Source: Actinokineospora enzanensis DSM 44649 (GTDB lineage: Bacteria > Actinomycetota > Actinomycetes > Mycobacteriales > Pseudonocardiaceae). Taken from it: a stretch of DNA of 64,000 nt. This document shows, piece after piece, positions 8,308 to 31,800 of this stretch. Location: contig NZ_KB894417.1 of NCBI RefSeq assembly GCF_000374445.1, positions 1-64,000 on the forward strand, written 5' to 3'. Positions within the stretch are counted from its first letter, which is position 1; each line of letters opens with the position of its first letter. Under the pieces are notes generated by a model. It saw only the letters and a list, made by a program, of their open reading frames with translations, was not told the DNA's origin and made no database searches. The position numbers and the translations under genes are program-made.

Positions 8308-8309
8308 CG

Positions 8310-9044: not shown

Positions 9045-9133
9045 GGCCTACCCCCTGATGAATTGTGCATCGAACGCTGCTTAATACCCTCGCACGGGTA
9101 CGCTCGGCGTGTCAACGCGCGGGAGGAGGCGGC

Positions 9134-9955: not shown

Positions 9956-9983
9956 CCGCTGTTCCACCGCTGGAGGGTCTCCC

Positions 9984-14959: not shown

Positions 14960-15026
14960 CGACGCGTTTTCAACCTGGCACTCGCCGGGTGTGTCACAGG
15001 GCCCGCGCGGCGGGGACACTGGGGCC

Positions 15027-15887
15027 ATGGACACCGAGCTGGGCGCCTTCCTCCGCACCCGCCGGGCCCGCCTGCGGCCCGCCGACGTGGGTCTGACCTC
15101 GTACGGCGCGCGCCGCGTGCCCGGACTGCGCCGGGAGGAGCTGGCCCAGCTGGCCGGGGTCAGCGCCACCTACTACACCCGGTTGGAGCAGGGGCAGAGC
15201 CAGAACGCCTCCGACGACGTCCTCGACGCCATCGCCCGCGCGCTGCGGCTGGACGCCGACGAGACCGCCCACCTGCGCGACCTGGCCCGCCCGACCCGCA
15301 AGCGCCGCAGGCAGGCCCCGCGCCCGGAGGCGGCCCGGCCGGGCCTGGCCCACCTGGTCGAGTCGATGGCCGGGGTGGCGGCGCTGGTGCTCGACCGGCG
15401 CAACGACGTGCTCGCCTGGAACCGCCTGGGGCACCGCCTGCTGGCGGGCCACCACGACGTGCGCGCCCCCTCACGCGCGGCGGCCCGGCCCAACCTGATC
15501 CGGATGCTGTTCCTGGACCCGCACACGCGCGACCTGTACGCGCGGTGGAACGAGGAGGCCCGGCGCGCGGTGGCGTCCCTGCGGCTGATCGCCGGGCGGC
15601 ATCCGGAGGACCGGCACCTCGCGGAGCTGGTCGGAGAACTGTGCGTGAAGAGCCCGGAGTTCAGTGCGTTGTGGACTCGCCATCCGGTGCTGAACTGCGT
15701 GCACGGAGTGAAGCATCTCGCCCATCCGGTGGTCGGGGCGATGGAGTTGCACTACGAGGTCGTGCACACGCACGACGAGACCGGTCACCGGTTGATGCTG
15801 TTCAGCGCCGAGCCGTGCACCCCGTCGGAGGCGGCTCTGCGATTACTGGAGCACGAGCCGGTGTTCGAGGAACTCCCGCAATCCTGA
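15027..15887 (+). CDS. MmyB-like XRE-family regulator
   Basis: 286 residues from ATG 15027. N-terminal HTH (FLRTRRARLRPADVGL, RRVPGLRREELAQLAGVSAT, YYTRLEQG) and a C-terminal ligand-binding domain of the MmyB type (VLDRRNDVLAWNRLGHRLLA, NLIRMLFLDPHTRDLYARWN, WTRHPVL, and a terminal LMLFSAEP). Such proteins usually repress an adjacent oxidoreductase or exporter. The MFS gene 142 bp downstream on the same strand is the likeliest target; XRE autoregulation is also plausible. Confidence 0.9.
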   Translation: MDTELGAFLRTRRARLRPADVGLTSYGARRVPGLRREELAQLAGVSATYYTRLEQGQSQNASDDVLDAIARALRLDADETAHLRDLARPTRKRRRQAPRPEAARPGLAHLVESMAGVAALVLDRRNDVLAWNRLGHRLLAGHHDVRAPSRAAARPNLIRMLFLDPHTRDLYARWNEEARRAVASLRLIAGRHPEDRHLAELVGELCVKSPEFSALWTRHPVLNCVHGVKHLAHPVVGAMELHYEVVHTHDETGHRLMLFSAEPCTPSEAALRLLEHEPVFEELPQS

Positions 15888-16029
15888 CACCATCGTCCAC
15901 TGGACGGCACGCGCGAGCCTGTCCCTGCCAGTGCCAGTCACGCCGGGAGTAGGCAGCACGGGATTCTGGTTGGCCACGCGGACAACGGCGAGTCTGGGAG
16001 CAGAAACCCGGACCCGCAAAGGAATCCCG

Positions 16030-17560: not shown

Positions 17561-17764
17561 TTATCGGGGTCGGTCTGTCCGGGAATCCGACGCCAGTGTC
17601 CCGCCGCTGCCCCAGTAGCCGGGATCGGTGTCGCGGATGATGACGGTCACCGCCTCCCGCGGGCAGCCTGCCGCCGCCACGAGCGCGTCGGTTATCCCGC
17701 GCACGGCCTCGGCGCGCGCGGTTTCCGAGTTCCCCGTCCACCAGTCGACGGTCACCACCGGCAT
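17561..17764 (-). CDS. Tautomerase-family protein (4-oxalocrotonate tautomerase-like)
   Basis: 67 residues, ATG 17764 after GAGGGAG. The protein starts MPVVTVDWW, giving the catalytic Pro1 after Met removal, then the helix TARAEAVRGITDALVAAAGC and strand AVTVIIRDTDPGYWGSGG, as in small tautomerases. Acts on keto-enol chemistry of unsaturated acids; the substrate is unknown. Divergent from the LuxR-type regulator, 110 bp away, and near the C-nucleoside-like cluster, where a tautomerase could be relevant. Confidence 0.85.
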   Translation of the reverse strand: MPVVTVDWWTGNSETARAEAVRGITDALVAAAGCPREAVTVIIRDTDPGYWGSGGTLASDSRTDRPR

Positions 17765-17874: not shown

Positions 17875-18744
17875 ATGACCAGTGGGGCCATCGCACCAGA
17901 GGGCCGCGACCAGGGCACCCGGCGGGTGCTGCGCGACCTCGCCGACGCCCGCCGCGGCGACCCGACCGGCCCCGGCCTGGCGCTGGCCAGCCAGCTGGAC
18001 GCGGTCGAGGCGGCGATCCAGTACGCCGAGCGGTTGCAGCAGGGGCAGTTGAGCCTGCGCCAGCAGCTGAGCCGGGCACGCACCGCGATCCGGTCCGCGC
18101 TGGCGGAGAGCACGGTCCCGGACTCCGGCCCGCCACGCCCGCGCCGGTCCGGCGACGACGTGTTCACCCACGCGCGCACCGAGGTCTGCTTCACGCTCAC
18201 CCTGCCCGCCACGGCCGAATGCCTGCGCACCGCCGCGGAGCAATACCGATCGCTGGCGGCACAGGGCATCGCGTTGCGCGCCATCTACCCGCTGCCGGTC
18301 ATCGCCGCGCCCGGGGTCGCCGAACACCTGGAACTGGCCGACGAGCTGGGCGTCCGCTACCGCTTCGCCCCCGCCGCCCCGGTGTTCATGGCGGTGATCG
18401 ACCGCGCGGTGGCCTTCGTGGCCGCGGGCCAGACCCCGACCGAACGCACCGAACTCGTCTTCCGCGACCGGGACGAGGTGGGACTGCTGGCCGCCGCGTT
18501 CGAACAGTCCTGGTCGGCGGCGGGTCGTTCTTCCGCGGCCACGCCCGGGGTACGGCTCACCGCCGAACAGCTGACCGTGCTGCGCACCATGAGCTCCGGC
18601 GCCAAGGACGAGGCGATCGCCCGCGAGCTGGGCATCTCGCCACGCACCCTGACCCGCGTCATCTCGTCGATCATGGACGCCCTGGACGCCCGCAGCCGCT
18701 TCGAGGCAGGCGCCCGCGCCTCCCGCCTCGGCCTGCTCGACTGA
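17875..18744 (+). CDS. LuxR-type HTH regulator, candidate cluster regulator
   Basis: 289 residues, ATG 17875 with CCGGAGGGAC upstream. The C-terminus carries a LuxR/GerE helix-turn-helix (LTAEQLTVLRTMSSGAKDEA, IARELGISPRTLTRVISSIM). The middle (about residues 100-200) resembles the TrmB/PLD-like sensor region of actinomycete regulators (TAAEQYRSLAAQGIALRAIY, ADELGVRYRFA). The N-terminus is a helical coiled segment with LQQGQLSLRQQLSRAR. Next plus-strand gene is psuG, 633 bp downstream, where tandem 21-bp repeats suggest an activator site. Confidence 0.85.
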   Translation: MTSGAIAPEGRDQGTRRVLRDLADARRGDPTGPGLALASQLDAVEAAIQYAERLQQGQLSLRQQLSRARTAIRSALAESTVPDSGPPRPRRSGDDVFTHARTEVCFTLTLPATAECLRTAAEQYRSLAAQGIALRAIYPLPVIAAPGVAEHLELADELGVRYRFAPAAPVFMAVIDRAVAFVAAGQTPTERTELVFRDRDEVGLLAAAFEQSWSAAGRSSAATPGVRLTAEQLTVLRTMSSGAKDEAIARELGISPRTLTRVISSIMDALDARSRFEAGARASRLGLLD

Positions 18745-18985
18745 GTCTTTTCGTCCCGCCACCCGTCCCCTCATTCCCGCCCGACACGGTTCCCGACCTG
18801 GCAACCGCACCGTTACCAGGGCACCGCGACCGTCGCGGGACAGACCGTGACAGGCAGGCGAGACACCGCCCGTCAACTCGTTCCGGGACCAGGAGAACGC
18901 AACAACCCGGTCGGACCCGGTAGTTCCACGGAAAAAACGGAACACGACCGGTGCCCAGGAACGGGCCGCAGGCTTCCCGACACAC

Positions 18986-19018
18986 GCCGCCCGGGTGGGG
19001 ATCCGCCACCCGGGCGGC
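18986..19018. terminator. Strong hairpin downstream of the LuxR-type gene
   Basis: GCCGCCCGGGTGG (18986-18998) and its perfect complement (19006-19018) enclose GGATCCG. It is 240 bases after the regulator stop and 360 before psuG, so it is either a terminator or an attenuating structure. Confidence 0.6.
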
Positions 19019-19302
19019 GGCGGGTGTCCGGACCGGGCACCGCGACCGCCGGGCCGACGGCACCGGAAAGCGCCCGTTCCCATGCCGTCCCTCCTCATGT
19101 CGCGGTGTCCCGACCGACCTGGCGGCACGACCCACCAGCGGGTCGAACCACCGATTCCGAGGCAACCACACCCGCGCGCGCCCGCGGACCATCGTGGCGA
19201 CTTCTGGTCAGGCGAGTTGTGGCCACCGTTTCACCTGGACTCGCGGCGCGCCGGTCGATCACGATGGGTGTCGACCCGCGACGACCCGGTGTCCCACGGG
19301 AC

Positions 19303-19336
19303 TCCCGGAAATCCCGGCCCGAGTCCCGGAAATCCC
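19303..19336 (+). promoter_or_regulatory. Tandem 21-bp direct repeats upstream of psuG
   Basis: TCCCGGAAATCCC occurs at 19303-19315 and again at 19324-19336, exactly 21 bp apart, that is two helical turns. A third, partial GAGAATCCC follows at about 19346. They end about 42 bases before the GTG of psuG. Same-face tandem sites of this kind are typical of activator binding. Confidence 0.5.
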
Positions 19337-19377
19337 ACACCGGGCGAGAATCCCAGCGAGGAAGCCGAGGAACCACC

Positions 19378-20298
19378 GTGTCCGAGTTGCTCGACATCAG
19401 CGAGGAAGTGCGCGACGCCCTGGCGGACGGCCTGCCCGTGGTGGCCCTGGAGTCCACCGTGATCGCGCACGGCATGGCCTACCCGGGGAACGTGGAGACC
19501 GCGCTGGCGATCGAGAAGGCGGTGCGGGACGCCGGTGCCGTGCCCGCCACCGTCGCCATCGCCGACGGCCGGTTCGCGGTCGGCCTGGACGAGTCCGCCA
19601 TCGAGCGGTTCGCCACCACCGCGGGCATTCCCAAGGTCAGCAGCCGCGACATCGGGCCGCGCCTGGCGGGCGGCGGCCTCGGCGCGACGACCGTGGCGTC
19701 CACTGTGGTCGCCGCGGACCTGGCGGGCATCCCGGTGTTCTCGACCGCGGGCATCGGCGGCGTACACCGGGGCGTGACCGAGACGCTGGACATCTCCGCC
19801 GATCTCGTGCAGTTCACCCGCAGCCGGGTCGCTGTCGTCTGCGCGGGTGCCAAGAGCATCCTCGACCTCGGGCTCACCCTGGAGTACCTGGAGACCCTGG
19901 GCGTCCCGGTCGTCGGCTACCGCTACGACGACTTCCCCGCGTTCTACGTCCGTTCGTCGGGATTCAAGGTGCCGCAACGGATCGACGACCTCGCCGACAT
20001 CGCCCGCGCCATCCGGCTGCACTGGGCGGCTGGCCTACCGGGCGGCCTGCTGGTCACCGCGCCGATCGACGAGGCCGACGCGCTCGACGGCGGCGAGATC
20101 GAGCAGGTCATCCAGCACGCGCTGACCAGCGCCGACGAGGCGGGCGTCACCGGCCCGGCGATCACCCCGTTCCTGATGAAGGCCGTGTCGAAGGCGACCC
20201 AGGGCCGCAGCGCGACCGCGAACCGGGCCGTGCTGATCAGCACCGCGCGGCTCGCCGGGCAGCTCGCCGTCGCCTACGCCGAGGGCGGTGCCGCGTGA
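19378..20298 (+). CDS. psuG: PsuG-type pseudouridine-5-phosphate glycosidase / C-glycosynthase
   Basis: 306 residues from GTG 19378 with GAGGAAGCCGAGGAACC upstream. Full-length PsuG/YeiN family: [16 protein letters not shown] with the catalytic Glu25, GGVHRG at 127-132, the Asp of TLDISADL at 138, and the ring-opening Lys159 in [18 protein letters not shown]. The family reversibly joins ribose-5-phosphate and uracil through a C-C bond. In catabolic loci psuG is paired with the kinase psuK; here a HAD phosphatase follows instead, overlapping by four bases, as in AlnA/AlnB of alnumycin biosynthesis. I therefore infer a synthetic C-ribosylating role in the downstream cluster. The nucleobase-like acceptor is unknown. 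Confidence 0.9.
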
Positions 20299-20987
20299 GC
20301 GAACACGTCTTCGGCGCCGTCTTCGACCTCGACGGCACGCTCGCCGACACCCCCGCCGCCATCTCCGGCCTGTTGCGACGCGTCTCGGACGAGTTCGGCC
20401 GCCCACGCACCGAGGACGAGGTCCGCCCGACCATCGGGAAACCGCTGGAACCGGCGGTGGCCGGGCTGATCGACCGCCCGGTCGACCACGCGGACACCAC
20501 CTCCGCCGTCGCCCGCTACCGCGAGCTGTTCGAACGCGAGGTGCTCGGCCGAGGCCCGGACCTGCTGTTCCCCGGTGTCACCGACGGCCTGCACGAGCTG
20601 CGCGCGCGAGGCATCGGCCTGGCCGTCGGCACGTCGAAGATCACCCGCTCGGCCGAGCAGCTGCTGACCGCGACCAACATCCGCCACCTGTTCCACCCGG
20701 TGATCGGCAACGACCAGGTGGAACATCCGAAACCCCATCCGGACATGGGACTGCGCGCCGCGGCGGAACTGGGACTGCGGCCGGAGTCCTGTGCCTACAT
20801 CGGCGACACCGAGACCGACATGCGCATGGCGTCCGCCGCCGGGTTGCGCCCGGTCGCGGTCACCTACGGCGTCGCCCCGGCCGCCGCGCTGGCCGCCGAG
20901 CCGGAGGTGGTGCTGTGCCACACCTTCACCGACGTGGTGAGCACCCTGCTCGACCTCGTCTACACCCCGGTCGCCACCCGCGGCTGA
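20295..20987 (+). CDS. HAD-family phosphatase (AlnB-like, candidate 5-phosphatase)
   Basis: 230 residues from GTG 20295, overlapping the psuG stop (GTGA). HAD motifs: [11 protein letters not shown] with nucleophile Asp11 and acid Asp13, motif II Thr in [12 protein letters not shown], motif III Lys in HPKPHPDMG, and motif [11 protein letters not shown]. The C1 cap resembles phosphoglycolate phosphatase and pseudouridine-5-phosphatases. Tight coupling to PsuG suggests removal of the 5-phosphate from the C-ribosylated product. A simple phosphoglycolate phosphatase role is less likely given the context. Confidence 0.88.
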
Positions 20988-21020
20988 CCGGCCTCCACCC
21001 ACCGCGAGAAGAAGAAAGCC

Positions 21021-22439
21021 ATGACCAGCGAATCCATCGCGAGTACACATGAGACAGCCGTGCCGGAGGAATCCGGTGCCATCCGGGGCAAGAAGGCCTG
21101 GGCGTTGGCCCTGCTCGGCACCGGGCTGTTCCTGGCCACATTGGACTTCTCCATCGTCTACGTCGCCCTGCCCAGCATCGGCGACGGTCTGGCGTTGTCG
21201 GAGGCGAACCTGCAATGGGTCGTGAGCGGGTATGCCATCTTCTTCGCCGGGTTCCTGCTGATCGGCGGCCGCGCGGGTGACCGGTTCGGCGCCCGGCGGG
21301 TGTTCATCCTGGCCACCGCCCTGTTCGGGATCAGCTCGCTGGCGGCGGGACTCTCGGACAACTTCACCCTCCTGGTGATCGCCCGCGCGGTCCAGGGAAT
21401 CGGGGCGGGACTGCTCGACCCGTCCACCCTCGGTCTCATCCAGCGGATCTTCCCGGCCGGGCCGCAACGCAACCGGGCCATGTCGGTATGGGGCGCGGTC
21501 GGCGCGATCGGCCTGGTCGGCGGCGTGGTCCTGGGCGGGCTGCTGGCGTCGATCTCCTGGCAGTGGGTGTTCTTCGCGACCGTTCCGGTGGCGGCGATCG
21601 CCGTGGTCAGCGCGTTCTTCCTACTGCCAAGCGACAAGGACTCCCCGCAGGGGACAGGTTCGCTCAACGTGCTGTCCGGGGTACTCGGGACCGGCGCGAT
21701 CCTGTTGCTGGTACTGGGACTGACCCGGCTGGCCGACGTCGGGCTCACCAGCACGACCGCGGCCTCGTTCGGCGGGTTCGTGGTGCTGGCCGTCGCCTGG
21801 GTCATCCGGGAACGCACCAGTTCCAACCCGTTGATCGCCCGCGCGCTGTTGCGGACCCGTTCCCTGGTGGTCGCCTGCGCGGTCGACGCCTGCTACGCGC
21901 TGAGCGTGGGCGTGCAGTTCTTCGTGGTCACACTGTTCCTGCAGGAGCAGGCGGGCTACAGCGCGCTGGCGGCGGGGCTCGGGTTCCTGCCGCTGACCGT
22001 CAGCGTCATCGTCGGCAACATCATCGGCGACCGGTTCATCGGCAACCGCGGCCCGCGCGCAATGATCATCGTCGGGCTGTCCACCGCCGCGGTGGGCATG
22101 ATCCTGCTGGCGCTCAGCACCCATCTCGACGGCTACCTCGCCGGTCAGCTGCCCGGCCTGCTGCTGTCCGGTCTGGGCAACGGCATCGCGTTCCCGGCCA
22201 TGTTCCTCTACGCGACATCCCAGGTGGAACCGGAGAACCAGGGCGTCGGCGCGGCACTGATCACCACGACCCAGTACGTGTTCAGCGCACTCGGCCTGGC
22301 CTTGCTGGTGATCGTCCTCGGGGTCCACCCGGACCTGGGCGACTACACCACCGCGTTCGCGGGCATCGGCGCGCTGGCATTGCTCGGCGCGGTCATCGGC
22401 GCGGTGGCCATCCGCCGCCCGGCCGCGCAACCCGTCTGA
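21021..22439 (+). CDS. MFS exporter, DHA2 family, within the cluster
   Basis: 472 residues, ATG 21021. Fourteen predicted spans; LATLDFSIVYVALPSIGDGL, the GRAGDRFGARRVFIL loop and GAVGAIGLVGGVVLGGLLAS match DHA2 antiporters. It lies 33 bp after the phosphatase in the same operon, so it likely exports the pathway product and gives self-resistance. A hairpin follows at 22469-22500. Confidence 0.9.
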   Translation: MTSESIASTHETAVPEESGAIRGKKAWALALLGTGLFLATLDFSIVYVALPSIGDGLALSEANLQWVVSGYAIFFAGFLLIGGRAGDRFGARRVFILATALFGISSLAAGLSDNFTLLVIARAVQGIGAGLLDPSTLGLIQRIFPAGPQRNRAMSVWGAVGAIGLVGGVVLGGLLASISWQWVFFATVPVAAIAVVSAFFLLPSDKDSPQGTGSLNVLSGVLGTGAILLLVLGLTRLADVGLTSTTAASFGGFVVLAVAWVIRERTSSNPLIARALLRTRSLVVACAVDACYALSVGVQFFVVTLFLQEQAGYSALAAGLGFLPLTVSVIVGNIIGDRFIGNRGPRAMIIVGLSTAAVGMILLALSTHLDGYLAGQLPGLLLSGLGNGIAFPAMFLYATSQVEPENQGVGAALITTTQYVFSALGLALLVIVLGVHPDLGDYTTAFAGIGALALLGAVIGAVAIRRPAAQPV

Positions 22440-22468
22440 CCCTAAACCACTGCTCCACCCCCACGGCG

Positions 22469-22500
22469 CCTGCCGTCGGGCCATCCGGCCCGGCGGCAGG
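22469..22500 (+). terminator. Hairpin inside the operon, between exporter and VOC gene
   Basis: CCTGCCGTCGGGCC (22469-22482) pairs with GGCCCGGCGGCAGG (22487-22500) with one T-G pair and an ATCC loop. It may end part of the transcripts and divide the operon into two expression units. Confidence 0.55.
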
Positions 22501-22564
22501 TTCCGCATGCCCGGACCTTTTCGCACACGCCGAAAAGAAATCCCGCGAAAGAAACGGAACTCCG

Positions 22565-23029
22565 ATGGAAATCCTGGCCAGCAGGCTCGTCATCCGCCCC
22601 ACCGACCCGGAGGCGAGCCGGGTCTTCTACCGCGACCGCCTCGGTTTACCGGTGTTCCAGGAGTTCGGGACCGGCCCGGAACGCGGCACCGTGTTCCACC
22701 TCGGCGGCGGGTTCCTGGAACTGGTGGGACGCTCGCCGGTCCCGGTGGCGGACCGGCCCGCGCTCTGGCTGCAGGTGCGGAACCTGGCAGCCACCAGGGC
22801 GGACCTGCTGGCCAACGGCGTGACACCGGTCCGCGACGCCCGCGTGGAGCCCTGGGGGTTGTGGGAGCTGCACATCGCGGACCCGGACGGGGTGCTGATC
22901 TACGTCGTGGAGGTCCCGCGCGACCATCGGTTCCGGCACGGCGTCCCGGTACCCGAGTTCGAGGCGCCGGTGCCGTTGGCGGAACAGATCCGGAACACCG
23001 GGAAAGAATATGCGGAGAGCCGGTCATGA
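22565..23029 (+). CDS. VOC-superfamily protein (glyoxalase/bleomycin-resistance fold)
   Basis: 154 residues, ATG 22565. Two beta-alpha-beta-beta-beta modules: LVIRPTDPEASRVFYRDRLG with GTVFHLGGGFLELVG, and LWLQVRNLAATRADLLANGV with WGLWELHIADPDGVLIYVVE. Metal ligands expected in the family are partly visible (His in VFHLGG, Glu in LWELHI, Glu in YVVE). It could be a metal-dependent tailoring enzyme or a binding protein for self-protection. A TTA codon lies at 22646-22648. The stop overlaps the next start. Confidence 0.85.
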   Translation: MEILASRLVIRPTDPEASRVFYRDRLGLPVFQEFGTGPERGTVFHLGGGFLELVGRSPVPVADRPALWLQVRNLAATRADLLANGVTPVRDARVEPWGLWELHIADPDGVLIYVVEVPRDHRFRHGVPVPEFEAPVPLAEQIRNTGKEYAESRS

Positions 23030-23499
23030 CCCTCTATGTCGAGGGCGCCGACTCCTATCTCGGTATCCGGGAGACCGCGGAATCGGTGCGCATCGGGGCG
23101 AACGAATGCCGCATGCTCATCCCTACCGACGCGACCGGCGACCGCCTGGGACTGTTCTCGCTCTCCCTGGCGCCGAACGGGCCGCACGCCCGGCCGCACT
23201 ACCACCGGGTGATGACCGAGCTGTTCATCGTCCACTCCGGAGAGGTCCGGCTGACCAGGGGCGACGAGGAGGTCACCGGGACCGCGGGCACCGCGCTCTA
23301 CGTCCCGCCCGGCGCCCCGCACGGGTTCGCCAACACCTCCGGCGAGCAGGCCGAGCTGTTGATCGCGTTCGTCCCCGGCCTGCACCGGGAGCGGTTCTTC
23401 CGCGGCCTGGCCGATCTGATCGACCTCGACACCGCGCCGACCCCGGCCGAGCTGGCGGAGTTCGCCACCCGGTTCGACCAATACACCGTACGAGAGTAG
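23026..23499 (+). CDS. Cupin-domain protein
   Basis: 157 residues, ATG overlapping the VOC stop. Single cupin: motif 1 GPHARPHYHRVMTELFIVHS with two His and a Glu, motif 2 YVPPGAPHGFANTS with a His, enough to bind a metal. C-terminal helices (AELAEFATRFDQYTV) resemble the quercetin 2,3-dioxygenase-like cupin family. The reaction is unknown; small cupins in biosynthetic clusters act as isomerases, cyclases or dioxygenases. Confidence 0.87.
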   Translation: MTLYVEGADSYLGIRETAESVRIGANECRMLIPTDATGDRLGLFSLSLAPNGPHARPHYHRVMTELFIVHSGEVRLTRGDEEVTGTAGTALYVPPGAPHGFANTSGEQAELLIAFVPGLHRERFFRGLADLIDLDTAPTPAELAEFATRFDQYTVRE

Positions 23500-23522
23500 C
23501 ACCACCCGACCCCTGGGGAGCC

Positions 23523-24656
23523 ATGTTATCCAGCGACCGGACCAGTACAGTCCACACCAGACAGCCGACCGGCAGCCTGGACACCCTCACCGGCCTGCGT
23601 TTCGCGGCCGCGATCCTGGTTTTCGCCACGCACATCTCGGCCAACCGCATGTTCGGCAGCCAGGCCGTCGACGACGCGCTCTTCCTCGTGTTCGGCCGCA
23701 TCGGCTGGTTCAGCGTCACGTTCTTCTTCGTGCTCAGCGGGTTCATCATGGCCTGGTCGCCGCGCGCCGGTGACACCGCCCGTTCGTTCTGGCGCAGGCG
23801 GGCGGCCAAGGTCTTCCCCAACCACCTGGTGACGATGTTCGCCGCGGTGATCCTGATGCTGGCCACCGCGCGGATGGTGAACCCGTCGGCGCTGTGCGCC
23901 AACACCTTCCTGCTCAGCACCTGGTTCCCCAGCCTGCCGATCTACGACTCGCCCAACGGGCTGAGCTGGTCGCTGTGCTGCGAGGCGTTCTTCTACCTCG
24001 CGTTCCCGCTGCTGCACAAGGTGATCCGGCGCATTCCCAGCCGGTGGCTGTGGACCTGCGCGGGCCTGGTCGTGGCTGCCATCATGGTCATACCGGCCGT
24101 GGCGATGACCCTGCCGACCACGCCGGTGACGCCGTGGGCGAGCACGATCCCGTTCTGGCACTACTGGTTGGTCTACAGCCTGCCGCCGGTGCGCGCGCTG
24201 GACTTCGTGCTCGGCATCCTACTGGCCCGGATCGTCCACACCGGACGCTGGATCCCGCTCGGGCTGGGCCCGGCCGCGCTGCTGATGGTGCCCGCGTACG
24301 TGGTGATGCTGGTGGTCCCGCCGCAGTTCGCGATGAACGCGGTCTGCGTGGTGCCGATGGGCCTGCTGGTCGCGGCGGGCGCGGTCGGCGACACCCGGGG
24401 CGCGCGCTCGCCGTTCCGCGCGCGGACCTGGGTACAGCTCGGTGAGCTGTCGTTCGCCTTCTACATGGTGCACGAACTGGTCATCCGCTATGGGCTGCGG
24501 GTGCTCAACGAGAACAAGTACGTGCTGGGCGGGGTGGTGCTGACGGTGTTCTTCTTCGTCACCTCGCTGCTGCTGGCCCGCTTGCTGTACCGGCACGTCG
24601 AGGTGCCCGCGCAGCGCTTCTTCGGCCGACCGCGCGCCGCGCGGACCCTGACCTGA
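23523..24656 (+). CDS. Membrane acyltransferase, acyltransferase-3 family
   Basis: 377 residues, ATG 23523. About ten membrane spans. The N-terminal LDTLTGLRFAAAILVFATHI supplies the family His, followed by VTFFFVLSGFIMAWSPR and the mid-protein SWSLCCEAFFYLAFPLL motif with the conserved Glu; C-terminal LGELSFAFYMVHELVIRY completes the pattern. Members O-acylate sugars or antibiotics such as macrolides. Here it could acylate the product or an intermediate. The second codon is TTA (23526-23528), a possible bldA checkpoint. Confidence 0.9.
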   Translation: MLSSDRTSTVHTRQPTGSLDTLTGLRFAAAILVFATHISANRMFGSQAVDDALFLVFGRIGWFSVTFFFVLSGFIMAWSPRAGDTARSFWRRRAAKVFPNHLVTMFAAVILMLATARMVNPSALCANTFLLSTWFPSLPIYDSPNGLSWSLCCEAFFYLAFPLLHKVIRRIPSRWLWTCAGLVVAAIMVIPAVAMTLPTTPVTPWASTIPFWHYWLVYSLPPVRALDFVLGILLARIVHTGRWIPLGLGPAALLMVPAYVVMLVVPPQFAMNAVCVVPMGLLVAAGAVGDTRGARSPFRARTWVQLGELSFAFYMVHELVIRYGLRVLNENKYVLGGVVLTVFFFVTSLLLARLLYRHVEVPAQRFFGRPRAARTLT

Positions 24657-24668
24657 GGAGATCCCCCG

Positions 24669-25457
24669 ATGATCAAGACCAGAACGCTGGGCGCGGTGCT
24701 CCCGGCCGCCGAGTTCCGGTTCCGTACCGGCCCGGACGGCGTGGCCGTGGCGACCCCGGTGGGCCCGGAGGTGGACGCCCGGATCGTCCGGCTGGACGTG
24801 GTGCGCGTGCCCGCGGGTCGCGTGTGGACCGCGGCGGACGCGCCCGGCGAGGAGAACGTCGCGGTCGTGTTCGCCGGGCACGGCCTGGCCACGTCCGGTC
24901 CCGACACGTCGGCCGTCACCCGCGCCGACACCGTCTACTCCCCCACCGGCGACGGTCTGGCGCTGGCGGCGGGCGGCGAGGGCCTGACCGCGTACGTGTG
25001 GCGGACGGTGCTGCTCGACGGGAGCCGTCCCGGAACCGCTCCCGCCCGGTTCTCCCGGTTGTGGAACGGGACGACCCGGCTGACCGGGTTCGCCGGGACC
25101 GGGCAGGCCGAGGCGTCCGCGCGGACGGCGACGATGAACTTCCTGTTCTGGCCGGGCACCGGCAGCCCGCAGCTGTGCCTGCACTGCGGATACATGCGGC
25201 CGGGCGAGTACTTCAACGTCCACGTGCACCCGGACAGCGAGGAGGCGTTCTTCGTCTTCGAGGGCACCGGACAGCTGCACCTGGACGGCGAGTGGATCGA
25301 CGCCGGGCCCGGGGACGTGCTGTTCGCCGCGCCGGGCGTGCCGCACGGCACCCGGCACCCCGGCGCGCACGACGGCCGGTTCGCCACCTGCGGCGGTCCG
25401 ACGCCGTTCGATCCCGTCCTGTACCGGCGCGCGGGCGTGTCCCCGGAGGTGATCTGA
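24669..25457 (+). CDS. Bicupin-like protein
   Basis: 262 residues, ATG 24669, RBS GAGGAG at 24656-24661. The N-terminal half is a degenerate beta-barrel (RLDVVRVPAGRVWTAADAPG, VAVVFAGHGLA) without obvious metal ligands. The C-terminal half is a full cupin: GEYFNVHVHPDSEEAFFVFE with two His and Glu, and FAAPGVPHGTRHPG with a further His. The layout recalls ureidoglycine aminohydrolase-type bicupins, which would be interesting beside a dihydroorotase/allantoinase-like gene, but similarity is too loose to assign that reaction. Confidence 0.8.
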   Translation: MIKTRTLGAVLPAAEFRFRTGPDGVAVATPVGPEVDARIVRLDVVRVPAGRVWTAADAPGEENVAVVFAGHGLATSGPDTSAVTRADTVYSPTGDGLALAAGGEGLTAYVWRTVLLDGSRPGTAPARFSRLWNGTTRLTGFAGTGQAEASARTATMNFLFWPGTGSPQLCLHCGYMRPGEYFNVHVHPDSEEAFFVFEGTGQLHLDGEWIDAGPGDVLFAAPGVPHGTRHPGAHDGRFATCGGPTPFDPVLYRRAGVSPEVI

Positions 25458-25459
25458 CC

Positions 25460-27262
25460 ATGTGCCGGATCTTCGGCCAGTTCGACGCGGAGACCACGCC
25501 GCACGAGTTGCGTACCGTCTCGGCCCTGTTGCGGCACGGCGGCCCGGACGCGCAGACGCGGCTGGACGGGCCGGGCTGGGGGCTGGGCGCCACCCGGCTG
25601 GCGATCATGGACCTGGACGGCGGCAGCCAGCCGTACGTGCTGGGCGACATCGTGGCGGTGTTCAACGGCGAGATCTACAACCACCGGGCGCTGCGCCGCA
25701 CGCTGCTCGAACGCGGCTACCCGATCCCGGACGAGTGCGACGGGTCGATCATTCCCGCGCTCTACGCCGAGTACGGGCCGGACCTGACCGCGCACCTGGA
25801 CGGCATGTACGCGCTGGCGATCGTGGACCTGCGCGGGGAGCCGCGGCTACTGCTGGCGACCGACGACGTCGGGATGAAACCGCTGTACTACCGGTGGGAC
25901 GCGGTGGGACGACGGTTGCATTTCGCGTCGGAACTGCCCGCGTTGCTGTCGTTCCGGGACGTGGACGCGGTCCCGTCCGAGACGGGACTGGACGACTACC
26001 TGGCGACCAAGACCCCGTTCGGGGAGAACACCCAGTTCCGGGGGATCCACGTGCTACCGCCCGCCGCGACCGCGACGGTGACCCGCGCGGACGGCCTGCG
26101 GGTGGGCAGGCGGACTGCCCGGGTCGGGGCCGCCGAAACGCACACTGTGCATACGACGGATGCGGTGGCAGCGGCGAAGCAGTTGCAGGAGCTGCTGCGG
26201 GAGGAGGTCCGGCGGCTGACGCTGGCGGACGTGCCGATCAGCGTGGTCACCAGCGGCGGCCTGGACTCCAGCCTGGTCACCGCGCTCGCCTCGGAGCATG
26301 TCCCGGAGTTGCACTCGTTCAACATCGCCTACCGGGGCACCTGGCCGCACGACGAACGCGGGTTCGCCACCGAGGTGGCGCGGCGGCACGGCACGCGGCA
26401 CCACCAGGTGGAGATCGATCCGCGCACATTCCCCGAGTTGCTCTCCGACGTGGTGTGGCACCTGGGTCAGCCCAATGCCGACCCGATCACCCTGAGCACC
26501 TACGCCTTGTTCCGAGCGGTGCGGGACGCGGGGTTCAAGGTCGCCCTGACCGGGGACGCGGCCGACGAGCTGTTCGGCGGCTACGACCGCGTCCGCGCAG
26601 CCCTGCGCGCGGACGACTGGATCCCCGACTACGTGCGCTCCCTGTCCGCGATCCCCCGCGTGCGGCGACTCGCCCTCTACACACCGGACTATCGGGCGTT
26701 CGTCACCGAGCAGGGCACTGCCGAGGACCGCATTACCCAACACCTGCGCTCGTCGACACTGTCTCGTCTGGACACGATCACCGAGTTCGAGATCGGTGCC
26801 CGACTCCCCGCCTACCACCTGCGCCGGGTGGACCACCTCAGCATGGCTTCCTCGGTGGAGGTCAGGCTGCCGTTCTGCCAGCCCTCCGTCGTCTCCTACG
26901 CGCGGTCCCTCCCCGCCACACTGAAGGTGACGCCCGAGCGCGGCAAACAGGTCCTCTACGACGCGGCGGCGGGTCTGCTGCCGGACTCGGTCCTGAACCG
27001 GCCCAAGCAGCCGTTCACCCTGCCGATCACCGCGATGCTCACCCCCGGCGAGCCGCTGTGGGACCTCGCCGTCGACCTGCTGACACCGCACCGGATACGG
27101 GCAGGCGGGCAGCTCGACCCGGACGCGGTCGCGGGACTGTTCCGGGACCAGGTGGAACGTCCGGCGGACGACTCGGCGCTGGCGATCTGGTCGCTGCTGA
27201 TCCACGAGCTGTGGCTGGACCAGTTCACCGGTTCCGCCCGTCTGTCCGGGGTGACGGCGTGA
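25460..27262 (+). CDS. Asparagine-synthetase-like glutamine amidotransferase
   Basis: 600 residues, ATG 25460. N-terminal class II glutaminase domain with nucleophile Cys2 (MCRIFGQF), RHGGPDAQT and NGEIYNHRALRR. C-terminal synthetase domain with the pyrophosphate loop SGGLDSSLVTALAS near residue 265 and LTGDAADELFGGYDRVRAAL. Both active sites look intact, so it should use glutamine ammonia and ATP to amidate a carboxylate. In a biosynthetic operon this typically makes an amide on a pathway acid rather than asparagine. Confidence 0.92.
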   Translation: MCRIFGQFDAETTPHELRTVSALLRHGGPDAQTRLDGPGWGLGATRLAIMDLDGGSQPYVLGDIVAVFNGEIYNHRALRRTLLERGYPIPDECDGSIIPALYAEYGPDLTAHLDGMYALAIVDLRGEPRLLLATDDVGMKPLYYRWDAVGRRLHFASELPALLSFRDVDAVPSETGLDDYLATKTPFGENTQFRGIHVLPPAATATVTRADGLRVGRRTARVGAAETHTVHTTDAVAAAKQLQELLREEVRRLTLADVPISVVTSGGLDSSLVTALASEHVPELHSFNIAYRGTWPHDERGFATEVARRHGTRHHQVEIDPRTFPELLSDVVWHLGQPNADPITLSTYALFRAVRDAGFKVALTGDAADELFGGYDRVRAALRADDWIPDYVRSLSAIPRVRRLALYTPDYRAFVTEQGTAEDRITQHLRSSTLSRLDTITEFEIGARLPAYHLRRVDHLSMASSVEVRLPFCQPSVVSYARSLPATLKVTPERGKQVLYDAAAGLLPDSVLNRPKQPFTLPITAMLTPGEPLWDLAVDLLTPHRIRAGGQLDPDAVAGLFRDQVERPADDSALAIWSLLIHELWLDQFTGSARLSGVTA

Positions 27263-28260
27263 TCGCGCACATCGCCGAGGCGGTCGGGGCGCCGACACCG
27301 ACCGTGGTGCTGGACGCGGAGACGCTGCCGGAGTCGGAGGAGCGGCTACGGCCGGTGCTGACGGAGATCCGGCGGGAACTGATCGCGCGCGGGCAGGGGC
27401 AGGTGCTGAAGTTCGCATTGGTCCGACCGTCGGAGCATCCATTGTTCGACTTGGATTACCGGTTCGTCCAGGCATTGCCCGGCGGCCCGGATCGGTTCGA
27501 TTTCCTGGGCAGCTGCGGGCATTCGATCCTGTCATCAGTGCTGGTGGCCGCGGAAATCAACTGGTTGCCCCGATTGGCGCCGGGCAGCCGCGTGCGGGTG
27601 CGGGTACTCAACAACGGCGACCACGTGGTGTGCGAGGTCGACGAGGCCCGGCACGGCGGCGGGTCGTTCACGGTGCACTTCCTCCAGGGCCCGAACGCCG
27701 CACTGTCCCGGCTGCTGGTCACCGGCGCGGCTGCGGACTCGCTGCCGACCCCGGCCGGGGTGACCGAGGTGTCGATCGTGGACGTCGGCAACCCGTACGT
27801 GTTCGTGGCTGCGACCGAACTGGGGCTGCGCAGCCGGGAGGAGCTGTTCGACGCGGGCGAGGACGTGTTCGCCCGGCTGGCGGGCATCCGCGCGGCCGCC
27901 GCGACCCACCTGGGCAGGCCCGCGGGCAGTGTGTTCCCCAAGATCGCGGCCGTCGGCGGCTACCAGCCGGGACGGCTCGCGGCGCGGGCGATCTCCGTCC
28001 CGCACTGGCACCCGACCCTGGCGCTCACCGGCGCCACCTGCCTGGCGGCCGCCGCCGCGATTCCCGGGACGGTCCCGTTCCGGTTGTTGCGCCGGGGTGG
28101 GGACTTCGCGATCGACACGCCGGGCGGAACGACGTCGGTGTCCGCGTCGGTGGACCGCTCGACCTTGCAATGGGTCAGCGTGCGCGGCAAACGCGCGCAC
28201 CTGCACGGCCCGATCCGCATCGACCGGGAGGTAGCCGCATGGCAACCGTTGAGCGTGTAG
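27259..28260 (+). CDS. PrpF-like isomerase (diaminopimelate-epimerase fold)
   Basis: 333 residues from GTG 27259, overlapping the previous stop. Two-lobed DapF-like protein; FDFLGSCGHSILSSVLVAAE supplies a Cys and PTPAGVTEVSIVDVGNPYVF the GNP signature of the PrpF/AcnD-accessory family. Family members isomerise the double bond of aconitate-type unsaturated acids. In this cluster it may move or isomerise a double bond in a dicarboxylate precursor of the heterocycle. That role is inference. Confidence 0.8.
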   Translation: MIAHIAEAVGAPTPTVVLDAETLPESEERLRPVLTEIRRELIARGQGQVLKFALVRPSEHPLFDLDYRFVQALPGGPDRFDFLGSCGHSILSSVLVAAEINWLPRLAPGSRVRVRVLNNGDHVVCEVDEARHGGGSFTVHFLQGPNAALSRLLVTGAAADSLPTPAGVTEVSIVDVGNPYVFVAATELGLRSREELFDAGEDVFARLAGIRAAAATHLGRPAGSVFPKIAAVGGYQPGRLAARAISVPHWHPTLALTGATCLAAAAAIPGTVPFRLLRRGGDFAIDTPGGTTSVSASVDRSTLQWVSVRGKRAHLHGPIRIDREVAAWQPLSV

Positions 28261-29336
28261 CGCTGTTGCACGACGAACTCGCCCGCGCCGCAGCCGAGGC
28301 CGACCGCACGGGCGCGCTACCGGAGCCGGTTCTGACCGCGTTGCGTTCCTCGGGTGTGCTCGGTCTCGCGATCCCGGTCGAGTACGGCGGTTCCGGCGGC
28401 GATGCGCTTGCCACGAACACAGTGGTGGCGGAGGTGGCGTCGCTGGATCCGTCGGTGGCGATCATCCTGTTCCAGCATTACGCGGTGAGTGCCCGTATCG
28501 CCGAGTGGGGCACGCCGTCCCAGAAATCCCACTACCTGTCCCGTCTGGCGAGCGGCGACTGGCTGGCGGCGTCGGCGTGGAGCGAGAGCGGCGGCGGGGC
28601 GGACAAACGCAACATCGCAACACGCGCGCAACGAGTCCCGGACGGCTGGGTGCTCGACGGCGCCAAGTCGTTCACGACCGGCGCCGGGCTGGCCCAGGTG
28701 TACCTGGTGCTGGCGCAGTCGTCGGCCCCCACCGGGGACTCGCTGACCTACGGTGCGAGCGGCCAGACGTTCTTCCTGGTCGACGCCACCGCCCCGGGAC
28801 TGGTGGCGGACACCGGCATGGACCTGGTCGGTATGCGCGCCTCCGCCACCGGTTTCGTCGAGCTGCACGACTGCCGCGTCCCGGCCGGGGCCGTCCTGGG
28901 CCCGGAGGGCTCGGCCCCCCGGATCATCGCGGGCGTCCGCGAGTCCGGCGCGACGCTGGGCGCGGTGTCCGTGGGCATCGCCAGGGCCGCGTACCAGTTG
29001 GCGTTGCACCACGCCCGCAAACGGGACCTGGGCCCGGCCCAGGCATTGCGCCACCGCCTGGTCGACCTCGCGGGCCAGGTCGAGGCCGCGAACGCCGTGG
29101 TCGAACGCGCGGGCCGCCGCGACAGCCCCGACCCCGGCATCGCGACCCTGCTGAGCAAGATCGTCGCGTCCGGCATCGGCGAGTCCGTGTGCGCGGAAGT
29201 GCAGCGCCTGTTGGGAAGCAGCGCGTACCTGCACGACCACCCGATCAACCGGCTGGCCCGGGACGCGCGCGCGGTCGGCCTGATGGGCCCGACCAACGAC
29301 CTCTGCCGAGAGCTGGTGAGCACTCCGTGGACCTGA
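28239..29336 (+). CDS. Acyl-CoA dehydrogenase-like flavoprotein
   Basis: 365 residues, ATG 28239, overlapping the upstream gene by 22 bases. ACAD layout: N-terminal helices, LGLAIPVEYGGSGGDALATN, the FAD-contacting SAWSESGGGADKRNIATRAQ, and GWVLDGAKSFTTGAGLAQVY. The C-terminal domain has QRLLGSSAYLHDHPINRLAR with a family Arg and GPTNDLCRELV. The usual catalytic Glu cannot be placed confidently. Could desaturate a non-CoA substrate or act as an N-oxidising flavoenzyme, as ACAD homologues do in several natural-product pathways. Confidence 0.88.
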   Translation: MATVERVALLHDELARAAAEADRTGALPEPVLTALRSSGVLGLAIPVEYGGSGGDALATNTVVAEVASLDPSVAIILFQHYAVSARIAEWGTPSQKSHYLSRLASGDWLAASAWSESGGGADKRNIATRAQRVPDGWVLDGAKSFTTGAGLAQVYLVLAQSSAPTGDSLTYGASGQTFFLVDATAPGLVADTGMDLVGMRASATGFVELHDCRVPAGAVLGPEGSAPRIIAGVRESGATLGAVSVGIARAAYQLALHHARKRDLGPAQALRHRLVDLAGQVEAANAVVERAGRRDSPDPGIATLLSKIVASGIGESVCAEVQRLLGSSAYLHDHPINRLARDARAVGLMGPTNDLCRELVSTPWT

Positions 29337-30676
29337 TCATCACCAACGCCCGCCTGGTGACCCCGGACGGCGTGCGTCCGGGCGGCATCGCCGTCCAGGA
29401 CGGCAGGATCGCCCGCCTGTTACCCCCGGACGTGACCGTTCCCGCGACACAGACCATCGACGCGGAAGGGAAGTACGCCCTCCCCGGCCTGATCGACTCC
29501 CACGTCCACTTCCGCACCCCCGGCCTAACCCACAAGGAGGACTGGGCGCACGCCGGCCGCGCCGCCGCCGCGGGCGGTGTCACCACGGTGATCGACATGC
29601 CCAACACCCGTCCCGCCCTGCACAGGGTGGAACAGGCCTACGAGAAAGCGGAACTGATCGAGGGCAACTCCCTGGTCGACTACCGGTTCCACTTCGGCGT
29701 GGTCGCCGAGACCGTCTCGGAACTGGAGTCCCTCCCGCCGCGAGTCGCGACCTCCGTCAAGGTCTTCATGACCGGCCACCACACGGCCCCCGACGTGGTG
29801 CGCGACCCCGCGGTCCTGGAACGGATCTTCATCACCGCCGCCGCCCGCGACCTCCGAGTGATCCTGCACGCCGAGGACGACGCCATCTTCAGCCTGCTGG
29901 ACCTGGGCACCACCGCCCCCACCACGTACACGGACTACGAACCCCGGCGCCCCCGCAGCGCGGCCATCGTCGCCGTCGCCAAGGTCATCGAACTGGCCCG
30001 CCGCCACAACACGTCGACCCACGTACTGCACGTCTCCTCCGCCGAGGAAGCCCACCTCCTGACGGCGGCCCGCGCGGCAGGCATCCCCATCACGTTCGAG
30101 ACCACCCCGCACCACCTGTCCTTCGTCGCCGAGGACGCCGCCCGCCTCGGCGCCCGCATCCGCCTCAGCCCCGCCATCCGCCAACCCCACGACCGAGGCA
30201 CCCTCTGGTCCGCCCTCGTCGCGGGCCACATCGCCACCATCGGCAGCGACCACGCCCCACACACCCTGGAAGAGAAGTCCCGCCCCGTCCCGGACGCCCC
30301 ACCCGGCCTCCCCGGCGTCCAGGAACTCCTCCCGGCCGTCTTCACCGGCCTCCGCCGCCGCTACCCCGACACCCCGATCGACGACCACCTCTCCCTCCTG
30401 TCCCGCGTCGCCGCCGCCGAACCCGCCCGCCTGTTCCACATCGACCACCGCAAGGGCTCCCTGGCGGAAGGCAAGGACGCCGACATAGTCCTGTTCGACC
30501 CCCACGACACCTGGCCCCTCACCACCCCCCACACCAAGTCCGCCTGGTCCGCCTACGAAGGCTGGACCTTCACCGGCCGCCCCCATCTCACTCTCCGTCG
30601 CGGCACCCCCATCCACACCCTCGCCACCAACACCTTCGGCCCACCCACCGGCGAATGGCTCCCCGCCCGCCCCTGA
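29327..30676 (+). CDS. Dihydroorotase/allantoinase-like cyclic amidohydrolase
   Basis: 449 residues from GTG 29327, overlapping the upstream gene by ten bases. Amidohydrolase fold with the binuclear metal motif DSHVHFRTPGLTHKEDW, bridging Lys in TSVKVFMTG, later His in LHAEDDA and VLHVSS, and IGSDHAPHTLEEK with the catalytic Asp. Pairing with PsuG suggests closing or opening a six- or five-membered ureide ring that becomes the base. Housekeeping pyrC is unlikely, because no other pyrimidine genes are nearby. TTA codon at 29420-29422. Last gene of the operon. Confidence 0.9.
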   Translation: MDLIITNARLVTPDGVRPGGIAVQDGRIARLLPPDVTVPATQTIDAEGKYALPGLIDSHVHFRTPGLTHKEDWAHAGRAAAAGGVTTVIDMPNTRPALHRVEQAYEKAELIEGNSLVDYRFHFGVVAETVSELESLPPRVATSVKVFMTGHHTAPDVVRDPAVLERIFITAAARDLRVILHAEDDAIFSLLDLGTTAPTTYTDYEPRRPRSAAIVAVAKVIELARRHNTSTHVLHVSSAEEAHLLTAARAAGIPITFETTPHHLSFVAEDAARLGARIRLSPAIRQPHDRGTLWSALVAGHIATIGSDHAPHTLEEKSRPVPDAPPGLPGVQELLPAVFTGLRRRYPDTPIDDHLSLLSRVAAAEPARLFHIDHRKGSLAEGKDADIVLFDPHDTWPLTTPHTKSAWSAYEGWTFTGRPHLTLRRGTPIHTLATNTFGPPTGEWLPARP

Positions 30677-31800
30677 GTTATCCACACCCCCGACTCGCCA
30701 TCCATTCGACTGTCACCCTTCCCCGGTAAAATGGACTTCGGGGGCCCTCACGGTTATCCACATCCCCGAAATCCATCCCCACCCCCACAATCCCACTTGA
30801 CAGGGCCACGCCCTCCGCCGCCACCCATCCACAGCCCAGCGACATCCCCCTGGCCCAACACCCCTCACCTCCTAGCCTCGGACTCGGGGGATCCCGGCGA
30901 GTTATCCACATTCCCCCAAATCATCCACATTCCTCTCCCCACATTTGACACCCTGATCCATCCACACCTTGACCTCGACCGGTCATCGCGCCACCGTGTT
31001 TGACCAGGGGTTCGTTGAGGTTCTCGACGGGTCTGTACCAGCCGAGGGTCTGGCGAGGGCGGCCGTCGAGTTCGCGGGCGACTTCACGAGCCACCACCGA
31101 ATGACGCCAACGATCCTCCGATGGAACGAACCGACCGTCCCGCCCGCAATTCCCGCGAGATCGTCTCCCACCCCTCAAACCCAACACCACAGACACGATC
31201 CGGCGCATCGACCAGTCGAGGCCAAGCCCCCCACAACAACCTCCTTGCCCACCCCGCCCCTCAAGCCGTAACGTTGAAATCGGGGGTCCCCGCAGGTTGT
31301 CCACATCCCCCTAAACCATCCACAGCCACCACGAGAACCTTGACAACACCGCAGCCCGGGTTATCCACAAGCATGATCACTCGCGTATCCACGCACGACC
31401 CAACCCCGGTAGAATTGAACTCGGGGGATCCCAGGCGAGTTGTCCACAACGCCCGGATTCATCCACAGGCACCCGACAGCGCTTGACAACCCCGACACCG
31501 ACCCGTTGTCCACAGCGCATCCCAGGCCGTGCTTGCTCCCACCTCACCCAGGCCCTGGCCTCGAACTCGGGGGTCCCTGGGCCAGTTATCCACAAACCCC
31601 GAAACCATCCACAGGGCACCGGCACAGCCTTGACACCACACAGCCCCGTGATGTCGAAGTTGTCCACAGCCCGACGCCAGCCACGTTTGCCTGCCACACT
31701 CCCCCAGCCCTAACCTCGGACTCGGGGGATCCTCCGGCCAGTTGTGCACAACCGCCGAAACCATCCACAAGCCCGACCGGCCACTTGACGGCGCACGCCC
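30677..31800 (+). repeat. Array of about 145-bp intergenic repeats rich in DnaA-box-like 9-mers
   Basis: Non-coding. A core TCGGGGG(A)TCCC recurs at 30738, 30884, 31280, 31421, 31567 and 31722, giving spacings of 146, 396, 141, 146 and 155 bp. Each core is followed within 20 bp by TTRTCCACA or a close variant, then about 10-15 bases later by CATCCACA, then TTGACA. Perfect TTATCCACA or TTGTCCACA words start at 30678, 30754, 30902, 31297, 31361, 31440, 31506, 31586 and 31660. The 396-bp gap contains an IS30-type remnant. TTGTCCACA is the actinobacterial DnaA-box consensus; there is no dnaA or dnaN nearby. Confidence 0.8.
30990..31109 (-). pseudogene. IS30-type transposase C-terminal remnant
   Basis: The minus strand encodes WRHSVVAREVAR, ELDGRPRQTLGWYRPVENLN and EPLVKHGG, which matches the C-terminal end of IS30-family transposases (ELN-x-RPRKTLGW-x-TPAE pattern). 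Nothing resembling the catalytic DDE core precedes it, so this is a roughly 40-codon scar. It sits inside the repeat array. Confidence 0.65.

Follow-up and report, generated by a model that had tools for sequence, protein, structure and literature searches.

The described systems closest to the locus treated here are those of minimycin (oxazinomycin) and indigoidine (MinA-MinB-MinC, IndC-IndA-IndB), of showdomycin (SdmA-SdmE) and of alnumycin (AlnA/AlnB). The locus lies in Actinokineospora enzanensis DSM 44649, within the first 64,000 nucleotides of contig NZ_KB894417.1 (this whole stretch is called the window below), and judged from its sequence it is a probable PsuG/HAD C-nucleoside cluster of this known kind. 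We consider it likely that the cluster is biosynthetic for a putative C-nucleoside, whose base would be made without a nonribosomal peptide synthetase (NRPS) by four enzymes that other actinobacteria pair with other partners. These are an AsnB-like amidotransferase, a PrpF-like isomerase, a flavoprotein like acyl-CoA dehydrogenases (ACAD) and an amidohydrolase like dihydroorotases (DHOase), and their genes, when found together, are called the quartet. The predicted product is probably a uridine-like compound, reached by a route not yet described.

With the minimycin and indigoidine systems the cluster shares a PsuG-type C-glycosynthase, a HAD phosphatase and an exporter, together with a PF01361 tautomerase, which is a domain of the NRPS there and a free protein here. 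IndC-type NRPSs are present in comparison PsuG loci (two scanned), and the PsuGs linked to them form a sister clade in FastTree but not in IQ-TREE. However, neither an A-Ox-T-TE-Tau NRPS nor a MinC-type DUF4243 protein nor a uracil phosphoribosyltransferase is encoded in the cluster; the quartet would supply the base instead, and the cupins, the VOC protein and the acyltransferase are additional. The showdomycin system likewise has PsuG, HAD, MFS and ACAD-fold proteins, whereas the scanned genes here contain no A domain or peptidyl carrier protein. In showdomycin-like loci, which were named by gene content (the sdm cluster itself lay outside the comparison), the PsuG clade is separate and the ACADs are 25–27% identical to the one here, which lacks the glutamate. 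An 88-aa protein of one such locus, L195, was rejected as a proven carrier protein, since it had no Pfam match at 1e-4. The alnumycin pair is also a PsuG homologue with a HAD phosphatase, and AlnA is 56% identical to the window PsuG; here, in contrast, aromatic polyketide genes are absent and Asn282 stands where alnumycin-type enzymes have Gly. The quartet proteins resemble by sequence the folds of dihydroorotase, PrpF/3-methylitaconate isomerase, asparagine synthase B and acyl-CoA dehydrogenase and keep their key residues except in the ACAD (Gly in 75 of 75), but unlike these relatives they are combined as one operon unit.

Genes were called with a codon-usage gene finder, and families were assigned by Pfam and NCBIfam scans of the cluster proteins (NCBIfam gave no match for PsuG, the VOC protein and the acyltransferase; Pfam backs all family names). 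Eleven co-directional plus-strand genes run from psuG (19378) to the end of the DHOase-like gene (30676), with gaps of at most 125 bases or small overlaps. An earlier, sequence-only reading of the window had named these eleven genes; all are present, and Pfam agrees with every family name. It had also begun the cluster with psuG at 17875, which is ruled out because Pfam identifies 17875–18744 as a LuxR-type (GerE) regulator, separated by a 633-bp gap from psuG. Its list further missed a divergent PF01361 tautomerase gene (17561–17764, minus strand), which is conserved in relatives. With the LuxR gene, whose product probably controls the cluster, the plus-strand genes number twelve. Pfam scans of the cluster genes revealed no PfkB/psuK-type kinase, and no NRPS, polyketide synthase (PKS), DUF4243 protein, uracil phosphoribosyltransferase, free A domain or carrier protein. 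The earlier statement that no NRPS is present therefore holds within the scanned genes.

The twelve plus-strand genes occur in the same order in Streptomyces eurythermus (L018), S. niger (L232) and NZ_CP108116.1 (L233), with identities of 45–80%, and the tautomerase is present in all three. NZ_CP108116.1 is a linear plasmid of Streptomyces sp. NBC_00212, on which transposase genes flank the cluster on both sides. In locus L165 eleven of the twelve genes (LuxR to ACAD) follow in the same order up to the end of the compared stretch. Since the order is kept in three other records, this gene set is beyond chance. Quartet-type PrpF is missing from all seven other genomes of the genus in the sample; hence, its distribution is patchy.

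The PsuG tree contained 95 tips labelled from gene neighbours and was computed with FastTree and IQ-TREE. Alnumycin-, showdomycin- and quartet-type labels were assigned by hand from neighbouring genes, and for tip L136 (genome G830) the quartet-linked label relies on a PrpF located on a different contig. In this tree the window PsuG falls among the quartet-linked enzymes, apart from the kinase-linked catabolic ones. The split between the kinase-linked group (41 tips, the second PsuG of the window genome and two unlabelled tips) and all others received an ultrafast bootstrap (UFBoot) value of 100 in IQ-TREE, and FastTree agrees. In 44 comparison loci a kinase family gene is at most three genes away from psuG, and in 42 it stands directly beside it (PF00294 on the one member scanned). 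On the other side, UFBoot was 85 for the 13 quartet-linked tips, 100 for the 26 NRPS-linked tips and 99 for four showdomycin-like PsuGs, which form their own clade. The one other PsuG of the window genome (C22:93200-94078) groups with the kinase-linked enzymes. The trees thus bear out the earlier view that this PsuG, paired with a HAD enzyme, belongs with biosynthetic enzymes, and the phylogeny check proposed at that time did not place it among the catabolic ones.

Residues of PsuG point in the same direction. E25, D142 and K159 of the window PsuG correspond to E31, D149 and K166 of the Escherichia coli enzyme. Of the residues listed in the earlier reading, Glu25 and Lys159 match Glu31 and Lys166, whereas Asp138 pairs with Asp145; Asp149, which we take to be catalytic, has its counterpart in the conserved Asp142. 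At the position of E. coli Gly131, Gly is found in 41/41 kinase-linked PsuGs and Ala in 13/13 quartet-linked ones, or in 50/50 when quartet-, NRPS-, alnumycin-, showdomycin-type and HAD-only PsuGs are taken together; the unlabelled tip L141 has Gly yet falls on the biosynthetic side of the tree. The position of Asn296 is Asn in 41/41 kinase-linked and Thr in 13/13 quartet-linked PsuGs, and in the NRPS-linked ones it is Thr (20) or Cys (6). At the position of Asn289, 12 of the 13 PsuGs linked to a quartet retain Asn (N282 in the window; His in the remaining one), as do the kinase-, NRPS- and showdomycin-type groups, whereas all four alnumycin-type PsuGs, one of them 98.6% identical to AlnA, have Gly. 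The acceptor of the alnumycin type is a naphthoquinone. In E. coli PsuG, Asn289 hydrogen-bonds O2 of uracil, according to a passage of PMC7722734. Because its equivalent is kept in 12 of the 13, the base here probably carries a carbonyl where uracil has C2=O.

The link between psuG and the quartet extends over thirteen distinct clusters with both on one contig: those of the window, S. eurythermus, S. niger, L165 (counted with its quartet visible only up to the ACAD, where the stretch ends), NBC_00212, S. chumphonensis, Actinopolyspora xinjiangensis, S. griseoruber, S. dioscori, S. tauricus, Streptomyces sp. M41 and genomes G946 and G851. In one sample of 392 genomes, assigned to Streptomyces through contigs shared with named records such as L164 and L018, 43 (11%) carry a quartet-type PrpF (E 1e-60 or better) and seven carry a PsuG of at least 73% identity, all seven being among the 43 (Fisher p 1.2e-7, uncorrected for relatedness or for the chosen cut, which was set post hoc where the identities drop from 73% to 67%). 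In six of these seven, psuG and PrpF are on one contig, and in G830 they are on two. When PsuG was searched in 48 quartet genomes (30 further loci lay outside the search), such identities were found only in genomes already mentioned. Moreover, in a tree of concatenated quartet proteins (71 tips) psuG appears in at least three separate places, and the quartet-linked PsuGs are nonetheless one clade. From these trees the PsuG module seems to have passed from one quartet to another, as it should if the quartet product is the substrate of PsuG.

Five of these clusters (G946, G851, S. dioscori, S. tauricus and M41) have a psuG-HAD-MFS-cupin-tautomerase module upstream of a CysE-CysK-cupin-EamA-bicupin-quartet cluster; therefore, genes for ribose and alanine couplings share a locus. 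The outcome there would be a single hybrid product or a pair of products that share their base. The arrangement of psuG and CysE/CysK around a single quartet was seen in L065/L168/L231 (S. dioscori), L069/L230 (S. tauricus) and L071/L228/L229 (M41).

The PrpF search matched six of 397 genomes of the order, including that of the window, and in the named genome collection it gave 87 relatives, of which 80 were kept. After removal of two duplicates from 86, and with the window excluded, there were 84 distinct quartet loci, and the quartet is complete in 75. Four loci (L064, L092, L093 and L094) have AsnB, PrpF and the DHOase-like gene without a quartet-type ACAD, which suggests that these three may be the minimal ring-making set. 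L012 lacks AsnB, L076 is cut off where its contig ends, and PrpF stands alone in L015, L091 and L097. Partners were counted in the 74 loci complete by gene calls: a cysteine-synthase-like gene in 46, a two-domain cupin in 37, a PHBH-type FAD monooxygenase in 33, a PF01613-type flavin reductase in 28, TauD and HpcH genes in 24 and FMN_red in 21; a flavin reductase or FAD monooxygenase gene is present in 61. One of these FAD monooxygenases resembles the urate hydroxylase HpxO and 6-hydroxynicotinate 3-monooxygenase, whose substrates are electron-rich N-heterocycles. Other actinobacteria would thus also use the quartet, with other partners. We found no publication on the quartet or a matching product, which is weak evidence of novelty as the search covered open-licence PMC papers only.

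Some further observations concern the quartet. A second one in the window genome (L011, G000:C4:75500-95000, at 7399-16130) is adjoined by a fusion of a hexapeptide transferase (CysE-like) with a FAD monooxygenase, a cysteine-synthase-like protein and a methyltransferase; it probably serves a different product with the same ring. In L019, L020, L021, L023, L024 and L095 the quartet is accompanied by genes of the ketosynthase, carrier, DegT aminotransferase and epimerase families (scanned on L019 and assigned by homology in the others), and of these six only L024 (S. chumphonensis) has psuG. DsbA-like proteins (L072:19421-20164, L019:14304-15002, L187:7120-7767) recur in quartet clusters and in one showdomycin-like psuG cluster. 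A 975-aa protein of L167 was ruled out as a synthase, since its BTAD domain shows it to be a regulator (the scan covered this protein and not its homologues in L166, L168 and L169).

Active sites of the quartet enzymes are largely intact. In AsnB the SGGLDS motif is present in 79/79 aligned sequences and Cys2 in 70/79; the nine others may reflect start-site errors. PrpF keeps K51 in 82/83 and C86 in 83/83, which we take to be the catalytic Lys and Cys of the PrpF/3-methylitaconate isomerase family. The DHOase-like protein keeps H59, H61, R63, N93, K145, H181, H235, D308 and H312 in 80/80, and Arg63, Asn93 and His312 correspond to the set by which dihydroorotase holds the carboxylate of its substrate. 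Its score with TIGR00857 is 286.9 bits (cut-off 279.05), the only model to reach its cut-off among the 25 of 66 models listed. In the ACAD-like protein, by contrast with its relatives, Gly350 occupies the position of the catalytic glutamate in 75/75, and position 236 is Ser (63) or Thr (12); these sites we assume to be equivalent to E376 of MCAD or E254 of IVD. The earlier assignment to the ACAD fold is upheld by Pfam, but a normal dehydrogenase is not to be assumed, and a plain acyl-CoA dehydrogenase was rejected since the glutamate is lost in the alignments. Because of this loss, and because 61 of 74 loci have a flavin reductase or FAD monooxygenase gene, a role as flavin monooxygenase or oxidase is likelier than acyl-CoA dehydrogenation.

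From the gene set, its conserved order, the biosynthetic PsuG clade, the quartet–PsuG link and the active-site residues, all read by sequence, we infer every chemical step of the following scheme. PrpF would isomerise an unsaturated di- or tricarboxylate, for example aconitate, and AsnB would turn one carboxylate into an amide. The DHOase-like enzyme, working in the ring-closing direction, would grip a second carboxylate by Arg/Asn/His and form a cyclic imide of the 2,6-dihydroxypyridine type, which the ACAD-like flavoprotein, lacking the acyl-CoA base, may then oxidise or hydroxylate. The small tautomerase would present a reactive tautomer; PsuG would form a Schiff base with ribose 5-phosphate via Lys159 and then a C–C bond to the base, and the HAD enzyme would strip the phosphate. 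Cupins, VOC protein and acyltransferase may tailor the product, and the MFS protein may export it. Amidation of an unsaturated polycarboxylate and subsequent imide closure is the simplest reading of the quartet residues. Aconitate appears to fit best as the start. Its trans isomer, which a PrpF-type isomerisation would supply, could be closed to citrazinate, a six-membered imide whose carboxylate is placed as in dihydroorotate. The full proposal is tentative, and we regard it as possible and somewhat doubtful: the quartet would convert cis-aconitate via trans-aconitate to citrazinate or a related 2,6-dihydroxypyridine by an undescribed route free of NRPSs, as a shared block to which PsuG adds ribose, giving C-nucleosides, and CysE/CysK-type enzymes add alanine, giving heterocyclic amino acids, clusters of the S. 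dioscori type doing both.

The pyridine-type ring is preferred mainly because of a parallel with minimycin. A PF01361 tautomerase lies near psuG in 10 of the 13 single-contig psuG and quartet clusters, window included, and a PF01361 match is likewise seen at the end of two IndC-like NRPSs that belong to other PsuG clusters, above the cut-off in L194 and slightly below it in L175. A passage of PMC8724604 describes that the tautomerase domain of MinA yields the tautomer that MinB accepts and ribosylates. By analogy, the free PF01361 protein is a possible counterpart of the tautomerase domain in the indigoidine/minimycin NRPSs.

Several observations weigh against the proposed scheme as a whole. 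In 70 of the 74 complete quartet loci the examined stretch contains no psuG (three of the 70 have one further upstream), and only four have it within; hence, C-nucleosides are not the sole purpose of the quartet. The quartet-linked PsuG of S. chumphonensis is just 62% identical, below the 73% cut. A flavin reductase gene follows the DHOase-like gene in S. eurythermus, S. niger and NZ_CP108116.1, whereas the window has none at this place. The sister relation of NRPS-linked and quartet-linked PsuGs found by FastTree (1.0) was rejected as a robust one, since IQ-TREE does not recover it, and therefore phylogeny does not fix the analogy to pyridine-type bases. The tautomerase was not found in the stretches of S. 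chumphonensis, Actinopolyspora and S. griseoruber (3/13), is present in just 23 of the 74 complete quartet loci and occurs in quartet loci without psuG as well, all of which weakens the parallel with minimycin. Finally, the aconitate start and the ring size are argued solely from residues.

A five-membered imide is the alternative that fares best, although we hold it to be unlikely: PrpF would give a maleate-type diacid, AsnB maleamate, and the DHOase-like enzyme would close a maleimide or pyrroline that PsuG ribosylates, giving a showdomycin-like base. By profile comparison, PrpF comes nearest to 3-methylitaconate isomerase, whose product is of the maleate type. Showdomycin itself counts in favour, being described in part of PMC8724604 as a PsuG-type C-nucleoside with a maleimide. 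However, showdomycin-like loci have a free A domain (PF00501) and a RedW/PigA-like dehydrogenase instead (checked on L195), and their PsuGs are the separate clade described above. Moreover, the invariant Arg63/Asn93/His312 set, judged by the substrate contacts in dihydroorotase, suits a six-membered ring whose carboxylate is beta to the carbonyl that is cleaved, and maleimide is a weak carbon nucleophile.

The earlier reading had proposed that AsnB, PrpF, ACAD and the amidohydrolase assemble a ureide or amide heterocycle. The four do form one unit, complete in 75 of the 84 distinct loci, whereas the ureide is unsupported because the Pfam and NCBIfam scans of the twelve cluster genes found no carbamoyl-supplying gene. 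The corresponding alternative, in which a carbamoylated acid would be cyclised by the DHOase-like enzyme and the ACAD would work like a dihydroorotate or dihydropyrimidine dehydrogenase, is thus quite improbable. It draws on the strong similarity to dihydroorotases and on the catabolic relative YeiN, which couples uracil as stated in a passage of PMC7722734, but the missing carbamoyl supplier and the four loci that retain AsnB, PrpF and the DHOase-like gene without a quartet-type ACAD speak against it. In addition, AsnB-type enzymes form amides from carboxylates.

PsuG might also have a substrate different from the quartet product, in the manner of AlnA, which works on an aromatic polyketide, and share the locus with an unrelated pathway. 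AlnA is indeed the closest solved structure by sequence, and ketosynthase- and carrier-type genes adjoin psuG and quartet in S. chumphonensis (L024; families checked on L019 homologues). We regard this as very unlikely, given the lack of a PKS among Pfam matches of the cluster genes, the union of psuG and quartet in at least three separate quartet lineages and the retention of Asn282 where alnumycin-type enzymes have Gly. A catabolic pseudouridine phosphate glycosidase operon, with which the cluster shares the PsuG fold, the catalytic residues and roughly 45–50% identity to kinase-linked PsuGs, is extremely improbable and was rejected, as the UFBoot 100 split contradicts it, no kinase is in the cluster, Gly131 and Asn296 are replaced by Ala and Thr, and the genome holds a separate catabolic-type PsuG.

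Features of the cluster are collected in Table 1. The metal residues of the single cupin are kept in 20/20 aligned sequences; in the bicupin the three His are kept in 43/43, with E192 in 38 and Asp in 5.

Table 1. Genes of the putative C-nucleoside cluster, with positions in the window
Feature	Position	Strand	Evidence and remarks
4-oxalocrotonate-tautomerase-like protein, 67 aa	17561..17764	-	tblastn match 57%; PF01361 E 1.8e-11; divergent from LuxR gene
LuxR-type (GerE) transcriptional regulator	17875..18744	+	Pfam GerE E 5.9e-08
PsuG-type C-glycosynthase (predicted)	19378..20298	+	PF04227 E 4.2e-114; closest solved structure by sequence AlnA 4ex8; trees
HAD phosphatase, 4-base overlap with psuG	20295..20987	+	HAD_2 E 2.4e-35
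MFS exporter (predicted)	21060..22439	+	MFS_1 E 1.1e-50
VOC/glyoxalase-fold protein	22565..23029	+	PF00903 E 7.9e-11
Single cupin, HxH-E-H metal site complete (H58, H60, E65, H99)	23026..23499	+	Cupin_2 E 2.9e-18
Membrane O-acyltransferase (Acyl_transf_3)	23523..24656	+	PF01757 E 1.7e-27
Two-domain cupin (bicupin), C-terminal metal site H185, H187, E192, H226	24669..25457	+	Cupin_2 E 6.8e-15
AsnB-like glutamine-dependent amidotransferase (quartet)	25460..27262	+	TIGR01536 345.6 bits, cut-off 267.1
PrpF-like isomerase (quartet)	27259..28260	+	PF04303 E 2.4e-22; profile closest to 3-methylitaconate isomerase 3g7k, E 3.4e-30
ACAD-fold flavoprotein without catalytic glutamate (quartet)	28239..29336	+	PF02771/02770/00441
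DHOase-like amidohydrolase, proposed imide-ring cyclase (quartet)	29327..30676	+	Best solved structure by sequence: dihydroorotase 2gwn

Past the cluster, the DnaA-box-like motif TTRTCCACA occurs nine times in about 1 kb (window 30677–31800), and 22 times in the window against 0.24 expected. The nine copies sit in imperfect repeats with a spacing of about 145–155 bases or multiples of it. The fuller pattern of this element was found at five places on four contigs of the genome and at none in a reversed control.

Our results offer a simple test to distinguish biosynthetic from catabolic PsuGs, namely the residue at the position of E. coli Gly131, which separates the labelled groups cleanly. If the proposed role of the quartet is true, there would be a further natural way to the base of a C-nucleoside, in which ordinary amide- and ring-forming enzymes take the place of an NRPS. 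The quartet would then also be a handle for finding uridine-like compounds and heterocyclic amino acids.

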